Shown here piece after piece: positions 1,184 through 8,933 of a DNA stretch of 64,000 nucleotides. The DNA is from Synechococcus sp. PCC 7502 (GTDB lineage: Bacteria > Cyanobacteriota > Cyanobacteriia > Pseudanabaenales > Pseudanabaenaceae), in the NCBI RefSeq assembly GCF_000317085.1, contig NC_019702.1, forward strand, positions 836,394 through 900,393, read 5' to 3'. Below the pieces are notes generated by a model. The model was not told the DNA's origin. It worked only from the letters and a program-made list of their open reading frames with translations, and made no database searches. Numbering within the stretch: the stretch's first letter is position 1; every line of letters begins with the position of its first letter. Made by a program: the position numbers and the translations under genes.

Positions 1184-1894
1184 TTAATGAGCAGGAATTA
1201 AAGCAAGCGCGGCATCTTTGGCAAGATAACCATCTTCCATGTGGACAATGCGATCGGCTATGTCTAAAATTCGATTATCGTGGGTCACCATCAAAATTGT
1301 GCAGCCTTGTTCTTTTGCCAGTGTTTGCATTAAATTAACCACATCTCGTCCAGATTTACTATCTAAAGCAGCAGTGGGTTCATCTGCTAATACTAACTTG
1401 GGATGACTAACTAAGGCACGGGCGATCGCTACTCTTTGTTTCTGTCCGCCAGATAGATTATCGGGATAATAATTAACTCTTTCTCCTAGTCCAACTTCGC
1501 TTAAAATCGCTTCGGCTCTAAGACTAGCTTCATGATAGGAAAACTGACTATGGAGTTCTAAGGGCATTTGCACATTTTGTTTAGCAGTGAGGGAACCTAA
1601 AAGGTTATGTGCCTGAAAAATATATCCAATATTTCGACGTATTTCTACCATTTTCGTTTTAGTTGCCCCTAAAAGCTCTTGTCCGAGGATTTTCATACTG
1701 CCTTCTTGGAGCGATCGCAAGCTACCAATTAAAGTTAAAAGTGTAGTCTTACCTGAGCCAGAAGGTCCTGTCATAATCACAATTTCACCTGCATTGATTT
1801 CTAAATTAATATCAAATAAAATCTGCTTTTTTAAGACTCCCTGCCCATAGTAGAAGTTCAAATTTTGAATAGAAATAACTGGTTCTAAGCTCAT
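1184..1894 (-). CDS. devA: DevA-type ABC transporter ATP-binding protein
   Basis: This 236-residue protein is the ATPase of a DevBCA/MacB-type exporter. Walker A GPSGSGKT is at residues 43-50, signature LSGGQ at 147-151, Walker B LVLADEP at 167-173 and the switch histidine in VTHD near 205. Length and motif spacing are normal for the family, which energises a trans-envelope pump from the cytoplasmic side. It follows the thioesterase gene by 6 bases and ends about 130 bases before the TolC gene on the same strand, which fits co-transcription with devB and devC further upstream. The DevA assignment rests on the devB-devC context; the sequence alone would also fit LolD/MacB ATPases. Confidence 0.9.
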   Translation of the reverse strand: MSLEPVISIQNLNFYYGQGVLKKQILFDINLEINAGEIVIMTGPSGSGKTTLLTLIGSLRSLQEGSMKILGQELLGATKTKMVEIRRNIGYIFQAHNLLGSLTAKQNVQMPLELHSQFSYHEASLRAEAILSEVGLGERVNYYPDNLSGGQKQRVAIARALVSHPKLVLADEPTAALDSKSGRDVVNLMQTLAKEQGCTILMVTHDNRILDIADRIVHMEDGYLAKDAALALIPAH

Positions 1895-1900
1895 GGTTTA

Positions 1901-2365
1901 TTACTCCTGATGTAAGTCTTTATGTAAATAGGTAGCAAATTTTTGTTTTTGATCTGGCTTAAGGCGATAGGGCTGCATGGTGTCTGGATCAGCAAATATT
2001 CCCTTCTGCTTGGCGATCGCCACTAAAATTTCTTCACTCTTTTTTTCACTATTGTCTTCACTACTAGAACTATCGATCTTAAAAAATCTAAAGGACATTT
2101 CTGCAGAGGCATGGCGTAATTCTGATACCCATAGTTCAACAGAAACTCGATCCCCAAGGTGTACAGGAGCCTTAAAACTAATTTCCGTACTAACTAAAAC
2201 TGGGACAAAACCCTCTTGGGCAATTTTATAAACGGGCATAGCGATCGCCTCTAAAAGCTTAGTTCTGCCAATTTCCATCCATTCACTATAAACAATGTTG
2301 CTCACATGACCATTGAAGTCAATATTGTAGGCATAGATTTCAAGTTCAAATTTCAGTATGCTCAC
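1901..2365 (-). CDS. Hotdog-fold acyl-CoA thioesterase
   Basis: The 154-residue protein shows the 4HBT-type hotdog pattern: the start region NIDFNGHVSNIVYSEWMEIGR carries Asp16, Gly19-His20 and Asn23 of the D-x-x-G-H-V-x-N active-site motif, followed by the SxxxSFKAPVHLGDRVxVE strand pattern. Family members hydrolyse acyl-CoA or acyl-ACP thioesters in the cytoplasm. The substrate here is unknown. It lies between the MAPEG gene and devA in the exporter operon, so it may act on a lipid precursor linked to the exported product (inference). DHNA-CoA thioesterase of phylloquinone synthesis is an alternative within the same superfamily, but the motif differs from that group. Confidence 0.75.
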   Translation of the reverse strand: MSILKFELEIYAYNIDFNGHVSNIVYSEWMEIGRTKLLEAIAMPVYKIAQEGFVPVLVSTEISFKAPVHLGDRVSVELWVSELRHASAEMSFRFFKIDSSSSEDNSEKKSEEILVAIAKQKGIFADPDTMQPYRLKPDQKQKFATYLHKDLHQE

Positions 2366-2403
2366 AGCTACATTTTTAGTTAACTAATTTCTATTATTGG
2401 TAA

Positions 2404-2811
2404 TCAAAGGTTCAACAGTGATTTGCCAATCCCAATCACGCTGCCTAATAGCAAAATAATTGCCACTAGAGAATTAATTGCAAAGCCTAAGCCTCTTTTT
2501 CCAGCCTCAGCATAGTAGCCCCACGCATAGAGAATTCTGCCGATAATCCAAATTCCTCCTAAAATATTGGCGGCGATCGCATTTACAAATAAGGCAAACA
2601 TCCAAAGGGCTGGAATAAAAATAATTAACTGCTCTAAGGTGTTTTGCTGAACCCGAAACACCCGTTCAAAGTTCTCATCGCCTGTTATTTGTGGTACAGG
2701 AACTTTATATTTTGCCCTAGCGATACCGACATTAAAACTGAGAATAAAAAATACGATTAGACTAAGAATCGTGACTAGCCCAGTTATTTGTAATTGTTTA
2801 ATATCAATCAT
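2404..2811 (-). CDS. MAPEG family membrane protein
   Basis: The 135-residue protein has four hydrophobic segments (about residues 8-30, 60-85, 85-100 and 110-132). It has the MAPEG hallmark RVQQNTLEQLIIFIP, in which the R-x-Q-x-N-x-x-E motif binds glutathione or a lipid in microsomal glutathione transferases and eicosanoid-metabolism enzymes. Bacterial members are poorly characterised. It sits between devC and the thioesterase on the same strand with short gaps (54 and 38 bases), so it is probably part of the exporter operon. A role in lipid or peroxide handling alongside the pump is inference. Confidence 0.8.
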   Translation of the reverse strand: MIDIKQLQITGLVTILSLIVFFILSFNVGIARAKYKVPVPQITGDENFERVFRVQQNTLEQLIIFIPALWMFALFVNAIAANILGGIWIIGRILYAWGYYAEAGKRGLGFAINSLVAIILLLGSVIGIGKSLLNL

Positions 2812-2865
2812 ATTTTTTATAAATTAGTTAATTTTGAAAAGACAGCTTAAGTCCCATAATGTTCT

Positions 2866-4023
2866 TTAGAATATATCAGCAGGATCGGCAGCTTGCAGTT
2901 TACGCATCGAAATCACCCCTGAAATTACGCACATAATAATGGTTAGAGTCAAGACTAACAAAGCTCGATCGCCTGTCATAGCAATGGGTAAACGAGTAGC
3001 ATTACGGGTCAAATTATATAAACCAATAGCGATCGCAAACCCCGGCACAAATCCTAAAATTCCCAAAACCAATGCTTCTTGAAAAACTATTCCCAACAGA
3101 TAAAAATTAGTGAATCCCATCGCTTTTAAGGTGGCATATTCCGCCAAATGATCGGAAACATCACTATATAAAATCTGATAAACAATCACCACACCAACGA
3201 TAAATCCGATCGCTGTACCCAAACTAAAAATGAAGCCAATGGAAGTATTTTTCTGCCAATAGGTTTTCTCAAAATTAGCAAATTCCACCGCCGTTAAAAC
3301 TTTGACATCTTCGGGTAATTGAGTTTGGAGCGTATTTTGGAGGCGAGGAATATCGGTATTGGGCTTAACTTTGATTAATGCCACACTGACTTCACTATCG
3401 GTACGCCGAGGAAATATGCGTAAAAAATTGCTGTCACTGGTAATTAAACTACAATCAGCCGCAAAGGAAGCTCCAATGGTGAATAAGCCATTTAGGGTAA
3501 CTTCACGCCCAGCAATCTCTGCTCCAACTTCTTTCCCCTGTTCCAATTTTTTGACTGTAGTATCATATTCGCCCCTAGCTGCGCGATCAAACATTAAAGT
3601 ATCAGGGAGTTTGATTGCCTCCAGATTGTTTTTGACTTCCTCTAACTTAAATGGAGAAGTCGTAGGATCAAAGCCAATCACTAAAATACTGCTGCTGGCA
3701 CGGGTGGTGGGATTCTTCCAATCAGCAAAATTGATATATAGGGCTTGGGCAGATTCCACATCCTCAAAATTCATAGCTTGATAGAGCCGCCGCCGAGGAA
3801 ATGTCTGCATATTGGGTAGGTTTCTTGCCTGTGGGCTAATCAGGACTAAATCCGTATCCAAAAGCCTATGTACTCTGGTATTACTATCAAATAAAGCCGC
3901 TTGAAATCCCAACTGAATGAACATCAACATTCCTGCAAACCCAATTCCTAAGAGTGCCACAATCAGGCGAGTTTTCTGGTGAGTTAGTTGCAGCCATGCT
4001 AAAAAAATGCGCCGTTTAATCAT
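2866..4023 (-). CDS. devC: DevC-type ABC transporter permease
   Basis: The 385-residue protein has the FtsX/MacB-type permease layout. One membrane helix lies near the N-terminus (about residues 18-40), followed by a large periplasmic domain of about 210 residues. Three helices lie near the C-terminus (about 262-287, 308-335 and 350-375), where the sequence SDHLAEYATLKAMGFTNFYL carries the coupling motif that contacts the ATPase. DevC pairs with DevA and the DevB adaptor to move glycolipids or other envelope compounds outward; in heterocyst formers it exports heterocyst glycolipids. Many non-heterocystous cyanobacteria also have DevBCA paralogues, so the substrate here is open. It starts 41 bases after devB. 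Confidence 0.9.
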   Translation of the reverse strand: MIKRRIFLAWLQLTHQKTRLIVALLGIGFAGMLMFIQLGFQAALFDSNTRVHRLLDTDLVLISPQARNLPNMQTFPRRRLYQAMNFEDVESAQALYINFADWKNPTTRASSSILVIGFDPTTSPFKLEEVKNNLEAIKLPDTLMFDRAARGEYDTTVKKLEQGKEVGAEIAGREVTLNGLFTIGASFAADCSLITSDSNFLRIFPRRTDSEVSVALIKVKPNTDIPRLQNTLQTQLPEDVKVLTAVEFANFEKTYWQKNTSIGFIFSLGTAIGFIVGVVIVYQILYSDVSDHLAEYATLKAMGFTNFYLLGIVFQEALVLGILGFVPGFAIAIGLYNLTRNATRLPIAMTGDRALLVLTLTIIMCVISGVISMRKLQAADPADIF

Positions 4024-4063
4024 GGGTTCAATTTTTTAATTTAGTATTTGACCTGTATTTGAC

Positions 4064-5230
4064 CTAAAGTGCGATCGCTACTTTGAGTTGGAGATTAGTT
4101 AAATTTTTCACGACCTTACTAGCCTCAGGCGAAAGCCGCACCTTAACTTCTACCACTCTGGCATCTTGATCGGCGGCGGGATCAGTCCCTAACACATCCT
4201 GTTTCGCAATTTGCCAACCGATTTGATCAACTACGCCCTTAAGTTCACCTGTAAAGGCATTACTGGTAATAATCGCTGCTTGCCCCATTTTGACTTGCTT
4301 AATATCACTCTGATAGACCTCAGCCACCGCATACATAGTTTCGGTATTCCCAATTTCGGCAATGCCTTTCTTTTGATCGCTGATCACTTCTCCCGACTTG
4401 GTATGAATCTTGAGAATTCTGCCATCACGAGGCGCACGCACATAGGATAGTTCTAATTCAGCTTCTGCTTGGTTTACGGAGGCGATCGCTCTATCAACTT
4501 CAGCCCTAGCTACCTGTACATCCACGGGACGAACTTCCGCAATCCGATTTAAGGTTTCCTTTGCTTCCTTTAATTGATCTTTAACCGTAGCGATTGTACG
4601 CTCTTGACTAGCTTTTGCTTCCCTCAATCGAGCTTGGGCAGTTTGCAGAGTTAACAGGCGAGAATCACGGCTAGAGGCGGAAATAGCCCCATCTTGATAT
4701 ATAGATTGATAGCGTTGATATTCTGCTTCTGCATTTCTGAGTTCAGCCTCACTACTAGCAACTGTGGCAGCTTGGGTGGCAATTTGTCCACTTAATTCCG
4801 ATTCGAGGCGAGAGATATTTGCCTTTTGTGCCTGAATTTCCCCAGACTTTGCCCCTGCTTCAACTTGAGCTAGTCTGGATTCCGCAACTTTAACATCCTC
4901 CTGTGCCTGTTCTAAGGCTGAAGCTCGGCGATCGCGACTATCTAAAATCGCTACAACTTGCCCTGATTTTACCTGATCTCCCTCTTTGACCAAAATCTTG
5001 GACACACGGGTACTACCACTGGATTCAGTTACCGAAAGTTTGATGGTTTCACCTTCGGGTTCTAGTCTTCCTAAAGCTGTAATTTTATTAGCTTTGGGCG
5101 TATCTGAAGCACGGACAGAGCTTTGAGAAGTTTGAGAAGACAGGAAAAAAATAGAAGTCGATCCAAGAATGACAGTCGCCGAAATTACGCCAATAGTGAC
5201 GGGGTTGATTATGCGTGGGGATATTTGCAT
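4064..5230 (-). CDS. devB: DevB-type HlyD/MacA-family periplasmic adaptor
   Basis: The protein is a membrane-fusion adaptor: an N-terminal membrane anchor (VTIGVISATVILGSTSIFFL), a first lipoyl half (LGRLEPEGETIKLSV with VKEGDQVKSGQVVAILD), a long coiled-coil hairpin of about 150 residues rich in Ala, Glu and Gln, then a second lipoyl half (LSYVRAPRDGRILKI) and a beta-barrel. It links the inner membrane permease to an outer membrane TolC channel. The chosen start is the ATG at 5230 (MQISPRII). An in-frame ATG at 5263 would add 11 residues (MYINSHICLKS) that look unlike the family; neither start has a clear ribosome site. It is the first gene of the operon and is divergent from the PadR gene. 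Confidence 0.88.
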   Translation of the reverse strand: MQISPRIINPVTIGVISATVILGSTSIFFLSSQTSQSSVRASDTPKANKITALGRLEPEGETIKLSVTESSGSTRVSKILVKEGDQVKSGQVVAILDSRDRRASALEQAQEDVKVAESRLAQVEAGAKSGEIQAQKANISRLESELSGQIATQAATVASSEAELRNAEAEYQRYQSIYQDGAISASSRDSRLLTLQTAQARLREAKASQERTIATVKDQLKEAKETLNRIAEVRPVDVQVARAEVDRAIASVNQAEAELELSYVRAPRDGRILKIHTKSGEVISDQKKGIAEIGNTETMYAVAEVYQSDIKQVKMGQAAIITSNAFTGELKGVVDQIGWQIAKQDVLGTDPAADQDARVVEVKVRLSPEASKVVKNLTNLQLKVAIAL

Positions 5231-5267
5231 AGATTTTAGGCATATATGACTATTTATATACAAATGA

Positions 5268-5305
5268 TTTTATTCAATCTGTTTTATTCAACAAATTTTA
5301 CTCAA
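5268..5305. repeat. Three 14-bp-phased direct repeats in the devB/padR intergenic region
   Basis: TTTTATTCAA occurs at 5268-5277 and 5282-5291, and TTTTACTCAA at 5296-5305. The start-to-start distance is exactly 14 bases each time. The array lies between the divergent devB and PadR starts. It resembles an iteron-like operator where a regulator could bind in tandem. AT-rich chance repetition cannot be excluded without comparing other genomes. Confidence 0.6.
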
Positions 5306-5314
5306 TAAATTGTA

Positions 5315-5325
5315 TACATGATGTA
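5315..5325. promoter_or_regulatory. Perfect 11-bp palindrome, candidate PadR operator
   Basis: TACATGATGTA is a perfect inverted repeat (TACAT-G-ATGTA) located 40 bases upstream of the PadR start at 5365 and beside the three direct repeats. PadR proteins commonly bind ATGT/ACAT inverted repeats near their own promoters, so this is a reasonable autoregulatory site. The assignment is inferred from sequence symmetry and position only. Confidence 0.45.
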
Positions 5326-5364
5326 CGATAAACTAAGTCTTTGAAAATTGTCAAGCAATTATTT

Positions 5365-5916
5365 ATGTCTCTTGGTCATATCATTTTGTCTGTTTTATCT
5401 CTTTGCCCTCAAAGTGGGTATGATCTTGCCAAAAAATTTGATGGTACTGTGGGTTGCTATTGGAAAGCGAGTCAGCAGCAAGTCTATAAGGAGCTAGCAA
5501 AGCTTGAAGAAAGAGGTGCAGTGTCCTATGAGGCTATTCCCCAAGAAGGACGTTTAGATAAGAAGGTTTATTGTTTAACCCAGCAAGGTACCGAAGAGCT
5601 AATTAAGTGGGTAATGGAGCCATCAGAGCCAACTGTAATAAGAGAAAGTCTGGCAGGTAAACTTAAAGCCGCACACCTTGTCCCTAAAGCGGTAATGATC
5701 AAGGATATTGAACGTCGTCGTCAAATTCATCAAACTAATCTTGAACATCTGAAGGCAGAACTAGCAGCCTATGAACAAATGTATGATCAAGGACTGCTTC
5801 CCCCTAAAGGTAAAATTTATTGCCAAATCGGAATTGGTAGAGGCATTCGCTACGAAAAGGACTGGGTGGCTTGGTGTGATGAGTCTTTAGCTCTTCTTTT
5901 GGCAAGTTCTGACTAA
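5365..5916 (+). CDS. PadR family transcriptional regulator
   Basis: The protein has 183 residues from the ATG at 5365. It opens with MSLGHIILSVLSLCPQSGYDLAKKF, the usual start of the PadR winged helix, followed by the wing region GRLDKKVYCLTQQGTEEL. Residues from about 90 on are a charged C-terminal dimerisation helix domain (Vir_act_alpha_C type: ERRRQIHQTNLEHLKAEL). A TTG at 5341 would add eight residues but is less likely because PadR proteins usually begin at MSLxHxIL. PadR proteins are repressors that often sense phenolics or drugs and control adjacent exporters. Its divergent placement suggests that it controls the devB operon and itself. Confidence 0.9.
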   Translation: MSLGHIILSVLSLCPQSGYDLAKKFDGTVGCYWKASQQQVYKELAKLEERGAVSYEAIPQEGRLDKKVYCLTQQGTEELIKWVMEPSEPTVIRESLAGKLKAAHLVPKAVMIKDIERRRQIHQTNLEHLKAELAAYEQMYDQGLLPPKGKIYCQIGIGRGIRYEKDWVAWCDESLALLLASSD

Positions 5917-6051
5917 AGTATAAATCTGATCTGATGGTTGATTTGTTGATCTCATAGAGGCATAAGGTAAATAATTGCATATTAATTACCAACTATTAGG
6001 GCAAGTGGTCGAAATAGATGGCAGAATATGGAAAAAATCTAATTTAAATTC

Positions 6052-6564
6052 ATGGCTAGATCCCAACGTAACGACAACTTTGTTGACCAAACCTTTACAG
6101 TTATTGCTGATACTATTCTTAAATTCTTTCCTGCTAGTCAAAAAGAGAAAGAGGCATTTGCATATTATCGTGATGGGATGTCAGCCCAAGGTGATGGAGA
6201 GTATGCTGAAGCACTAGAAAACTACGAAGAAGCTCTAAAACTGGAAGAAAACCCCTATGATCGCAGCTATATTCTTTATAACATTGGTTTAATTCATGCT
6301 AGCAATGGTGATCATGACAAAGCCTTAGAGTATTATCATCAGGCGATCGATATAAATCCCCGTTTACCTCAGGCATTAAATAATATTGCAGTCATCTATC
6401 ATTACAAAGGCGAAAAGTCAGAAACCGAAGATGATAGAGAAGACTTTTTTACCAAAGCTTCGGAGTACTGGGTACGAGCAATTAGGATTGCCCCTAATAA
6501 CTATATTGAGGCACAAAACTGGCTCAAAACTACTGGCAGAGCCGATATTAATGCGTTCTTTTAA
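6052..6564 (+). CDS. ycf3: Photosystem I assembly protein Ycf3
   Basis: The 170-residue protein is full length for Ycf3 (about 168-173) and begins with the typical [20 protein letters not shown]. It contains three TPR units, visible as [57 protein letters not shown] and [16 protein letters not shown]. It ends with the conserved [21 protein letters not shown]. Ycf3 is a thylakoid-associated chaperone that assembles the PsaA/PsaB core of photosystem I. It is a single gene, convergent with the HpsJ-like gene. Confidence 0.97.
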
Positions 6565-6573
6565 TGATTTTCA

Positions 6574-6600
6574 GGGGTTTTTAGAATATTTGTAAACCCC
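6574..6600. terminator. Inverted repeat between convergent ycf3 and HpsJ-like genes
   Basis: GGGGTTT at 6574-6580 pairs with AAACCCC at 6594-6600 around a 13-base loop. It lies between two convergent stop codons (6564 and 6607), so it could end transcription from both sides. No long T-run follows on either strand, so intrinsic termination is uncertain. Confidence 0.4.
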
Positions 6601-6606
6601 GCAAGC

Positions 6607-7323
6607 TTAAACTCGTTTTTTCCTAAAGAGTAAACTAAAAATTGCCGATCTTCTACCAGAATTTTGCCACCAAAATCTCAGGAATAGTAAGGCTATAATC
6701 ACTGCACCAACCACAGATTTAACGGTTCTCTTGCGAATCGACTCATTACTGTTGTTTACAGATTCTTCAATTTGAGACTGAACCGTTTTAATTTGATCAT
6801 CCAGTTGTTGCAATAGGTTTTCTCTAATCTTGCCAGGGCTTTGAATGGGATTAGGAGTTTCTGAAGTGTTAGGTATCTGTTTTTGAAATACTTCTAGTTC
6901 TTGATCCGTAGCGGTATTAATTTTTTTTCGTAACTCTTCAGCCTGGGAAATTTTTTGTTTTTCTTGAATTGAGTATTGAATATTGGTAACTCTAGTCAGT
7001 TTTAGCGAGGCAGATACACCGAGAGGAATTAGGGCAAAATAAATCAGGCTCAGAAAGAGAGAAAACCATGCAAAGACTCTAATTAGGGTTTTTTCAATTT
7101 TAAACTTATCTAAGTCTTGCTTAAGCTCACGGGATAAAATTAACCAAAACCCAATCAAAGTTCCCGGTGAGCTATCCACAAAGTAATTAAAGGTATTAAA
7201 TTCCCAACTAAAGTCAAAAAATTTGAGTGGAATTAAGTAAATTATGAGGTCTAACAGCGAAAAAAGGGCTAATCCGTAACCTACGTAGGGTAAAGTAGCT
7301 TTGGCATTCTCAGAATTGATCAT
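6607..7323 (-). CDS. HpsJ-like protein, cyanoexosortase A-associated
   Basis: The 238-residue membrane protein has hydrophobic segments at about residues 12-32, 43-64, 82-106 and 205-225. Between the last two lies a charged, coiled-coil-like region of about 95 residues (KQKISQAEELRKKINTATDQELEVFQKQI). The architecture matches the HpsJ-like proteins found next to cyanoexosortase A; HpsJ belongs to the hormogonium polysaccharide gene set. It is the last gene of a minus-strand cluster with the exosortase and its associated protein. The molecular function is not established. The call rests on the domain pattern plus neighbours. Confidence 0.7.
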   Translation of the reverse strand: MINSENAKATLPYVGYGLALFSLLDLIIYLIPLKFFDFSWEFNTFNYFVDSSPGTLIGFWLILSRELKQDLDKFKIEKTLIRVFAWFSLFLSLIYFALIPLGVSASLKLTRVTNIQYSIQEKQKISQAEELRKKINTATDQELEVFQKQIPNTSETPNPIQSPGKIRENLLQQLDDQIKTVQSQIEESVNNSNESIRKRTVKSVVGAVIIALLFLRFWWQNSGRRSAIFSLLFRKKRV

Positions 7324-7361: not shown

Positions 7362-8063
7362 TTAATCTGGATTCGCAAAACCCTTAAAATATTGATAGCG
7401 ATTACTATCTATATGTTGCCAAGCAGTAACTAAAGTTTTATAGCTTTCGTCAACATTATTCATATTACTGGGAATAGACAGATTTATCCATAAACATCGC
7501 CAATCCCTCAGTCTTTCCATGCCTAAAATTACTGGTATCCAGCGTTTGGGATTAAGATCATAGCGATCACGGTTGGCTTGAAACTGCTCATTAGTGACGG
7601 TACTGCCACCTCTAGGATTAATACAACTGGAAAGATAGGCAGTGTTTTGGTTGTAGTACAGCCCGTAAGAGCTTCCCGATTCCTGTGCAATTTTCATTAC
7701 TGGCACCTCATATTTTGATTTTTTGCTTTGAGCGTAAAGCTTTAAAAAACTATCCACCCCACCACTAGGCGATTGAAAATAAAAAACTTCTAGGGCTAAA
7801 GGTAATTGGGAAGCTTGAGAGTAAGTGTAGCGTCTGCCTGGTATTGCCTGAATTTCCCTAGTTCCCCAAGCTCGAGTAGTGAGTGATGTGGGAGTTGAAT
7901 TAAGATCAGACCATGCAGGTATAGGTATGCGATCAGGAATAGTCGGAGGCTGGATTCTGCCCCAAGTTGGATCAATTAGCGATCGCCCCATAATTGCCAA
8001 AACACCAACTGTTAAACCTCCCAGTAACCCTAGGTACCAAATTCTAGATTGTGCAGCCATCAA
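7362..8063 (-). CDS. Cyanoexosortase A system-associated protein
   Basis: The 233-residue protein has one N-terminal membrane segment (about residues 8-27, WYLGLLGGLTVGVLAIMG), then an extracytoplasmic domain carrying W-x-R-x-I-x-A-x-P-G-R-R-Y and RWIPVILGMERLRDWRCLWINL. Proteins of this kind occur directly after cyanoexosortase A genes and resemble in layout the EpsI-type partners of other exosortases. Its start overlaps the exosortase stop by a few bases, so translation is probably coupled. The exact role in protein sorting or polysaccharide export is unknown. Confidence 0.75.
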   Translation of the reverse strand: MMAAQSRIWYLGLLGGLTVGVLAIMGRSLIDPTWGRIQPPTIPDRIPIPAWSDLNSTPTSLTTRAWGTREIQAIPGRRYTYSQASQLPLALEVFYFQSPSGGVDSFLKLYAQSKKSKYEVPVMKIAQESGSSYGLYYNQNTAYLSSCINPRGGSTVTNEQFQANRDRYDLNPKRWIPVILGMERLRDWRCLWINLSIPSNMNNVDESYKTLVTAWQHIDSNRYQYFKGFANPD

Positions 8064-8933
8064 TTAGTCTCCGATTTTTCCTGAGTATGAGTCTGCTCCC
8101 ATATCCACTCACAAAGTAATCCAAATAACACCATGGAAATAATACTAAATACCTGCTCTCCCATACCTTCATGCCAATAGTCAAACGCTGATTTATTTTG
8201 AGCATTAGTTAGTATGGCTAGAATCATGATCCGAAATCCATTGACTAAAAACGCAATTAAAGCACCAGTTAATGGCAGTAATAAAGCAATAAGGCGAGGC
8301 ACTGGACAATAAATCGCAAATAAGGCTCCCATCTGCAAGAGGATAGCTATAGATGGTAAACCCGAACATCCAGAATTAACTTCGATCGCTCCATTGGGAA
8401 GGGCAAGAACTACATTTTTACGAACTACATCAAAGTTGGCGTAGTACAAAATTACTCCAACAAACTTAGCAGCAAGGAGACTAAAATTAAGGACTCTATC
8501 TAACAATTGGCATTAAGATACCAAAGGGGATCACGGAAACCAATACTAGAGCTAGCTCACGCTTATATAACTTTAAATTTTTAAAACCACTGGCAAGCAG
8601 TACTAACCCCACTGCTGAAAAAAGTGGCAGAATATCTAAAAGAACGTCATTAGATCCCCTGAAAAACCAACTGCGAACTAAAACCAAAGTGATTAGAGTT
8701 GCTCCGATCGCTATAGATATTAGATCGGATGAATCAATGGGTAGGGTTTTGCGTCGTTGCCAAATTAGAGAAACCACACCAACCCACGCTAACCCTCGCA
8801 CAATGACGTAATTAAGGTTAGGACTTAAGACGTATGGCAACTGTAAATGCATAACAAGCAACGCAGAACCCAGTGCGGCAAGCCAGAAACTAGATTTATA
8901 CAGCCATGATTGCCATGTATTATTTACTTCCAT
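8060..8933 (-). pseudogene. Cyanoexosortase A, split by a frameshift into two overlapping ORFs
   Basis: The N-terminal half (8496-8933, 145 residues, four or five membrane helices) ends in VIPFGILMPIVR-stop. The C-terminal half (8060-8506) begins LLDRVLNFSLLAAKFVG in the neighbouring frame. The C-terminal half keeps the exosortase catalytic set: Cys47 in NSGCSGL, Arg92 in NGFRI and His112 in YWHEGMG. Removing one base near 8507 would join MPLLDRVLNF in one frame of about 290 residues, the usual exosortase size. Exosortases are membrane transpeptidases that process PEP-CTERM proteins. The split could be a real mutation, a sequencing indel or a two-piece enzyme; no slippery heptamer is visible at the site. 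Confidence 0.8.

Follow-up and report, generated by a model that had tools for sequence, protein, structure and literature searches.

The repeats between devB and padR in Synechococcus sp. PCC 7502 probably constitute an extended operator for the regulator encoded next to them, an AphA-like PadR protein, as predicted from their sequence. The array looks like one that plausibly grew from a two-part site carried by related cyanobacteria. Several PadR dimers seated on overlapping dyads would most likely repress the devB operon. The predicted unit, its linkage to padR, its position relative to a TTGAC element and its extra copies are drawn from comparison, and PadR binding, cooperativity, repression and release by a ligand are what we infer for the function of the site.

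The window, meaning the whole 64-kb stretch of DNA that was analysed, contains a devB-padR intergenic region at 5231-5364 (Table 1). The repeat region as first noted ends at 5365, where the likely start codon of padR begins. The encoded protein combines a PadR wHTH with a large helical C-terminal domain, as the AphA-like subfamily 1 demands, and of the solved structures AphA matches it best (1yg2, E 4.6e-28, residues 1-180). On the minus strand, the genes from devB to the devA-like ATPase are closely packed, and together they resemble a DevBCA-type exporter plus two further genes. The MAPEG gene and the 4HBT thioesterase sit between the permease and the ATPase (1184-5230, minus strand), an arrangement that may hint at a lipid-like substrate. 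Further along the minus strand, at 7362-8933, lie adjacent small membrane-protein ORFs that resemble exosortases by eye.

Table 1. Positions of genes, candidate promoter and repeat boxes in the window
Feature	Position	Strand	Remarks
devA-like ABC ATPase	1184-1894	-	PF00005
4HBT thioesterase, same gene run	1901-2365	-	PF13279
MAPEG-family membrane protein, same gene run	2404-2811	-	PF01124
devC-like FtsX-type permease	2866-4023	-	PF02687
devB, HlyD-type membrane fusion protein	4064-5230	-	PF13437, PF16576; ATG 5230
Box 5, weak half-operator (predicted)	5254-5263	+	TTATATACAA; 14-bp series; PWM rank 12 of 127,982 window words
Box 4, strong half-operator (predicted), extra direct copy	5268-5277	+	TTTTATTCAA; joint top PWM score in the 64-kb window
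Box 3, strong half-operator (predicted), extra direct copy	5282-5291	+	TTTTATTCAA; joint top PWM score in the window
Box 2, left half of putative ancestral dyad	5296-5305	+	TTTTACTCAA; PWM rank 5 of 127,982; TTGAC distance fits the left half in orthologues
Core dyad TACTCA-N6-TGTATA	5299-5316		One mismatch to the 18-bp pattern TAYTCAANNNNTTGARTA
Box 1, right half of putative ancestral dyad, near-palindromic	5310-5319	-	TTGTATACAT; PWM rank 15 in inverted sense, 45 in direct sense
Palindrome of the preliminary description	5315-5325		TACATGATGTA; five paired bases per side, one central base; probably incidental
Candidate devB promoter	5325-5354	-	Promoter-like match; TTGACA (5354-5349), 18 bp, TATCGT (5330-5325)
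padR, AphA-like PadR regulator, 183 aa	5365-5916	+	PF03551 and PF10400 (Vir_act_alpha_C); ATG 5365

Spacing and composition of the boxes

The preliminary description had recorded three repeats, at 5268, 5282 and 5296, with an exact 14-base spacing. All three copies are present at a pitch of exactly 14 bp (TTTTATTCAA twice, followed by TTTTACTCAA), but they are part of a longer series, which extends in both directions through weaker copies at 5254 and 5310 to a total of five boxes. The weaker copies, TTATATACAA and TTGTATACAT, each agree with the orthologue consensus TTGTATTCAA at 8/10 positions. Self-similarity of 5231-5366 peaks at lag 14 (z 4.5), a level reached in 0/2000 dinucleotide shuffles, and lags 28 and 42 rank next. 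The best 3-copy score at the array is 28/30, compared with a maximum of 24 in 300 shuffles, while two segments elsewhere in the window (starting at 1973 and 57257) score 26/30 as 3-copy arrays. The lone word TTTTATTCAA, with up to one mismatch, occurs at 14 places in the window against 16.5 expected and is not over-represented. The distinctive property of the region is the spacing of the boxes, not the word itself.

Among the three strong boxes, mutual agreement reaches 93%, whereas their spacers agree at 33%, indicating that the boxes were kept while the spacers diverged. This contrast is unlike a recent tandem duplication. The half-site PWM behind the ranks in Table 1 was built from the 23 dyad loci described in the following section, with the window left out. 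Read as an inverted 6-N4-6 site (5300-5315), the core dyad matches 11/12 AphA-type positions with Y/R allowed. By the same measure, the four overlapping dyads of the array match 9, 10, 9 and 11 of 12 positions, and their sum of 39 exceeds the 34 that 1000 shuffles of this region reach at most, at any pitch from 12 to 17; outside the array, the best dyad-chain sum in the window is 30, at 14 bp. The bases at the facing-half position are TTT, TTT, TTT and TTG, whereas those of the orthologues begin with TTG, a mismatch in three of the four intervals. The window array can be read as overlapping dyads, but most of its facing halves are weak, although boxes 2 and 1 do face each other.

A perfect palindrome had also been described after the repeats. 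TACATGATGTA exists, but it overlaps box 1 (5310-5319), the fifth repeat, and does not form a separate motif. Because at least one five-pair palindrome (with 0 or 1 central base) occurs in 57% of 1000 shuffles of 5231-5364, a second regulator acting at TACATGATGTA was rejected. NtcA sites are known at heterocyst devBCA promoters. No NtcA-type GTAN8TAC site occurs in 5231-5364, and NtcA was rejected as the regulator on this ground; the near match GTATACATGATGTAC has N9. Since one unit covers all five boxes and the palindrome both stands at chance level and overlaps box 1, a second regulator does not seem to be needed. On the same points, together with the lack of GTAN8TAC, the earlier proposal that two motif types may serve two regulators finds no support.

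The candidate devB promoter ranks first among 12 promoter-like matches in 4000-7000; shuffles give 7.2 such matches on average. From its arrangement, TTGACA-18-TATCGT, transcription of devB would start near 5318, at box 1, and the array would span about the first 65 transcribed bases. No plus-strand promoter-like site that could serve padR itself is listed within 5200-5940. That the repeats instead act as RNA structure in the devB leader RNA is scarcely credible. The predicted fold is somewhat better than that of shuffles (z -2.0, with 7/200 equally good) and pairs boxes 5 and 1; however, 5150-5450 has no Rfam match up to E 1, and an operator accounts for all boxes as well as for the link to padR.

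The inverted pair upstream of orthologous padR genes

PadR homologues were taken from 58 related genomes, 37 of which had a match (the window's own included), with up to 30 best places used, and from 80 named loci of a wider scan, among the matches listed. The 115 PadR-match loci were reduced to 98 non-redundant loci, window included, so that 97 homologue promoters were compared. Those left out were 13 near-copies and L033, L091, L020 and L035, which were incomplete or had no detected start. Because L020 and L091, from one organism, carry the full dyad beside devB, leaving them out did not favour the operator reading.

In a maximum-likelihood tree, the window PadR is the sister (99/94) of a 23-row clade, but its branch is long and is flagged by the tool as unsure in its placement. 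An inverted pair, TTGTATTCAA-N4-TTGAATACAA (at least 17/20), precedes padR in 22/23 non-redundant orthologues of this sister clade. The one member without the dyad is L069, and L031, outside the clade, also passes the threshold of at least 17/20. A later search returned 22 loci, 14 of which repeated earlier ones; among the other 8, the dyad is found at 19-20/20 in 5. The dyad stands at a nearly constant distance from GTCAA (TTGAC on the devB strand), which follows it at 30 bp in 17, at 29 bp in 4 and at 28 bp in 1 of the 23 dyad loci; L012 is the sole case among them in which GTCAA was not found. Of the 22 dyad-bearing members of the sister clade, 21 have TTGAC at 28-30 bp. The -10 elements of the dyad loci are weak, matching 3-5 of 6 positions. 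From box 1 to the start of GTCAA the window likewise has 30 bp, so boxes 2 and 1 (5296-5319) occupy the place of the orthologous dyad, with boxes 3-5 as additions on the devB side.

A devB homologue lies on the opposite strand in 17/23 dyad loci, within the available DNA, and 6/23 are without one. At the 9/9 other devB-homologue loci, from the window's own genome and a congener, there is no PadR match, and dyad scores do not exceed 14/20 anywhere in 3.2-4.0 kb; on this scale the window array reaches 18. The site evidently goes with padR rather than with devB. These associations bear on the possibility that a different regulator binds the array in a two-regulator promoter, for which sequence alone leaves room, as it does for unknown regulators generally. 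However, the unit follows padR throughout nearly the whole sister clade (22/23) and is absent where devB homologues have no PadR neighbour, and both the missing GTAN8TAC and the chance-level palindrome speak against a second factor, which makes such a regulator very improbable. Tandem binding, the other option in the preliminary description, gains support, since the boxes appear to repeat the half-operator that precedes padR in orthologous loci.

The three additional boxes are harder to place in a phylogenetic frame. A third conserved box 14 bp further out in relatives (TAACTCC and similar words) was dropped because in several of them the opposite strand reads GGAGTTA just before ATG, which is Shine-Dalgarno-like by eye. 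L059 and L162 have one extra half-site each at 14 bp; these may be incidental and were not counted as confirmation, since each touches, by eye, the apparent start codon of the divergent gene. The best complete orthologue of the window PadR among 388 genomes of the class is 55% identical. In the congener G001 (85% complete), devB, devC, devA, the thioesterase gene and most of padR are absent at this place, which is best read as a lost regulator-exporter module, and devB homologues elsewhere in this genome reach no more than 50%. A MAPEG gene and a padR 3' remnant remain at the G001 locus (L033, 2600-4100). With this region lost, no same-genus comparison is available, and boxes 3-5 rest on single-sequence statistics and on analogy with arrays of 15-16 bp pitch. 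Phylogenetic footprinting, which had been suggested as a check, thus bears out the dyad unit but leaves these three boxes without phylogenetic confirmation.

It is unlikely, but conceivable, that PadR uses the core dyad (boxes 2 and 1) only, with boxes 3-5 as functionless leftovers of tandem duplication or as AT-rich coincidence. Such a restricted site would agree with the single dyad of sister-clade relatives (22/23), among which extra 14-bp half-sites are confined to the doubtful cases L059 and L162, with the lack of confirmation from any closer relative and with the weakness of box 5. In contrast, boxes 3 and 4, both of them extra copies, outrank every other half-site in the window, the boxes agree (93%) where their spacers differ (33%), and direct copies at 15-16 bp recur in homologue promoters, as described below.

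Half-site spacing among PadR homologues

The facing pair TA[TC][TGA]CA...TG[ACT][AG]TA at exactly 12 bp occurs in 91 cases in the 97 homologue promoters, with a mean of 0.0 in 40 shuffles. Direct plus-strand half-site pairs have a spacing of 15 bp at 19 loci, of 16 bp at 10 and of 14 bp at 1; none of these 97 promoters has such a pair at 10-13 or 17 bp, and shuffle means are about 0.1 for each spacing. Direct copies at 15 or 16 bp stand before 28/97 homologous padR genes. Runs of 3-4 direct half-sites are present in 7/97, and the run of five in the window is the longest. The runs of 3-4 boxes, at 15 or 16 bp, belong to L055, L064, L071, L086, L098, L019 and L115, several of which have a separate dyad too.

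Across the 26 intervals of 15 bp, each following half-site is preceded by four bases that read, in order, T in 21, T in 14, G in 21 and A in 17 cases. Because these bases are the TTGA of a facing half-site, the 15-bp arrays are best read as overlapping dyads. An alternative arrangement, in which PadR subunits polymerise head-to-tail on direct repeats in a BldC-like manner rather than binding as symmetric dimers on overlapping dyads, is improbable. The five direct boxes share one register, and a precedent exists in another family, the MerR-like BldC, in the accessible part of its description (PMC5859096). However, relatives mostly have the facing pair at 12 bp, the 15-bp intervals retain the facing half as overlapping dyads predict, and PadR-family regulators are described as symmetric-dimer binders in the accessible part of the AphA report (PMC6855506).

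A dyad could be scored for 82 homologues. Their recognition helix has Q at residue 37 in 55/66 of the TTCA type and H in 16/16 of the TGCA type; AphA, which binds TGCA, has H at this residue. Residues 12 and 101 covary with half-site type at least as strongly as residue 37. The covariation at residue 37 supports a pairing of protein and site, although it is confounded by clade membership, and Q/H at this residue is a possible specificity switch, with the same confounding. The window's own genome encodes a second PadR paralogue, about 40% identical, which has its own cluster of similar boxes upstream (L034, G000:C3:3347000-3349500).

Searches at genome scale are less discriminating. The three-box 14-bp pattern matches in 17 of 388 genomes (the window's own included) against 16 for the reversed control and is not enriched. 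No PadR match was found beside foreign three-box arrays at the 15 examined, the G110 array being left out, and most of the foreign arrays look like simple tandem repeats by eye. The pattern TAYTCAANNNNTTGARTA, with up to two mismatches, gave 140 forward matches compared with 81 for the control, and the naming of further regulon targets by this route was abandoned as too noisy.

Predicted mechanism and relation to known operators

The unit of the predicted operator would be the half-site TAYTCA within the 10-bp box TTGTATTCAA. In relatives, two such boxes form a facing pair, TAYTCA-N6-TGARTA, a short way downstream of the divergent promoter. In the window, this ancestral dyad would persist as boxes 2 and 1, and the devB side would have gained three boxes, directly repeated at 14 bp, to give four overlapping imperfect dyads. 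PadR dimers may first bind the best dyad, where devB transcription would start, and from there spread cooperatively along the array. The bound array would block initiation or elongation of the devB-devC-MAPEG-thioesterase-devA operon. By analogy with the family, padR itself is probably repressed too, and a ligand would free the PadR dimers from the array. Given the cooperative adjacent sites of AphA and the position of the promoter, cooperative protection of the array that blocks the devB start would be the natural reading.

AphA, a member of PadR subfamily 1 with sites at VC0857, tfoX and cqsS, is the closest of the known systems compared. In the accessible part of PMC6855506, its ChIP-seq site is ATGCAA-N4-TTGCAT, and its footprints cover 25 bp at a single site and 37 bp at two adjacent sites, which are bound cooperatively. 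The same part of that report describes cooperative adjacent sites at tfoX that match merely 6 and 7 of 12 positions, and repression of cqsS via sites over the transcription start. The window shares the 6-N4-6 inverted site (AYTCAA-N4-TTGART) with AphA as described there, but it has TTCA rather than TGCA half-sites and five boxes rather than two adjacent sites. The AphA control circuit is unrelated to the devB operon.

Two further systems each share part of the arrangement. The operators of LmrR and bcPadR, ATGT-N8 to 10-ACAT, have half-sites about 12 bp apart, as here, and these PadR proteins likewise adjoin genes under their control, an exporter in the case of LmrR, according to the accessible parts of PMC3506622 and PMC4534193. 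They differ, in those same parts, in the letters of the half-sites and in having one motif each before lmrCD and lmrR; moreover, LmrR belongs to PadR subfamily 2, whereas the window PadR is likened to subfamily 1. BldC operators resemble the window in their direct repeats of variable number and in cooperative binding by BldC, as given in the accessible part of PMC5859096. In contrast, BldC is MerR-like, is without a coiled-coil dimerisation domain in that account and recognises repeats of the form AATTXXXX(C), and no PadR homology is claimed.

These comparisons qualify the suggestion that the arrangement would be atypical for PadR. For an AphA-like PadR, a dyad of this geometry is nothing unusual, and AphA itself binds neighbouring sites cooperatively according to the accessible part of its report; what does stand out is the length of the direct run, which no other homologue promoter equals. 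An AphA-like PadR operator is already known as a kind, and the strict-pitch multi-box array appears to be new for PadR. A literature search of titles and abstract starts, with most subscription papers outside its reach, found no PadR direct-repeat operator and no PadR control of DevBCA.

A broader proposal, tentative and rather doubtful, is that cyanobacterial AphA-like PadRs may form long cooperative assemblies on half-site arrays of 14, 15 or 16 bp, with the number of boxes tuning repression. The window would then hold the longest such array; almost all of its facing halves would have decayed, and binding would have moved to the direct repeats.

The analysis provides a concrete predicted operator for a PadR that adjoins a DevBCA-type exporter. 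It also provides spacing rules for one group of PadR promoters in cyanobacteria, in which facing half-sites stand 12 bp apart and direct copies follow at 15-16 bp, or rarely at 14 bp. These promoters form a natural series with varying numbers of boxes, in which cooperative PadR binding would be measurable.
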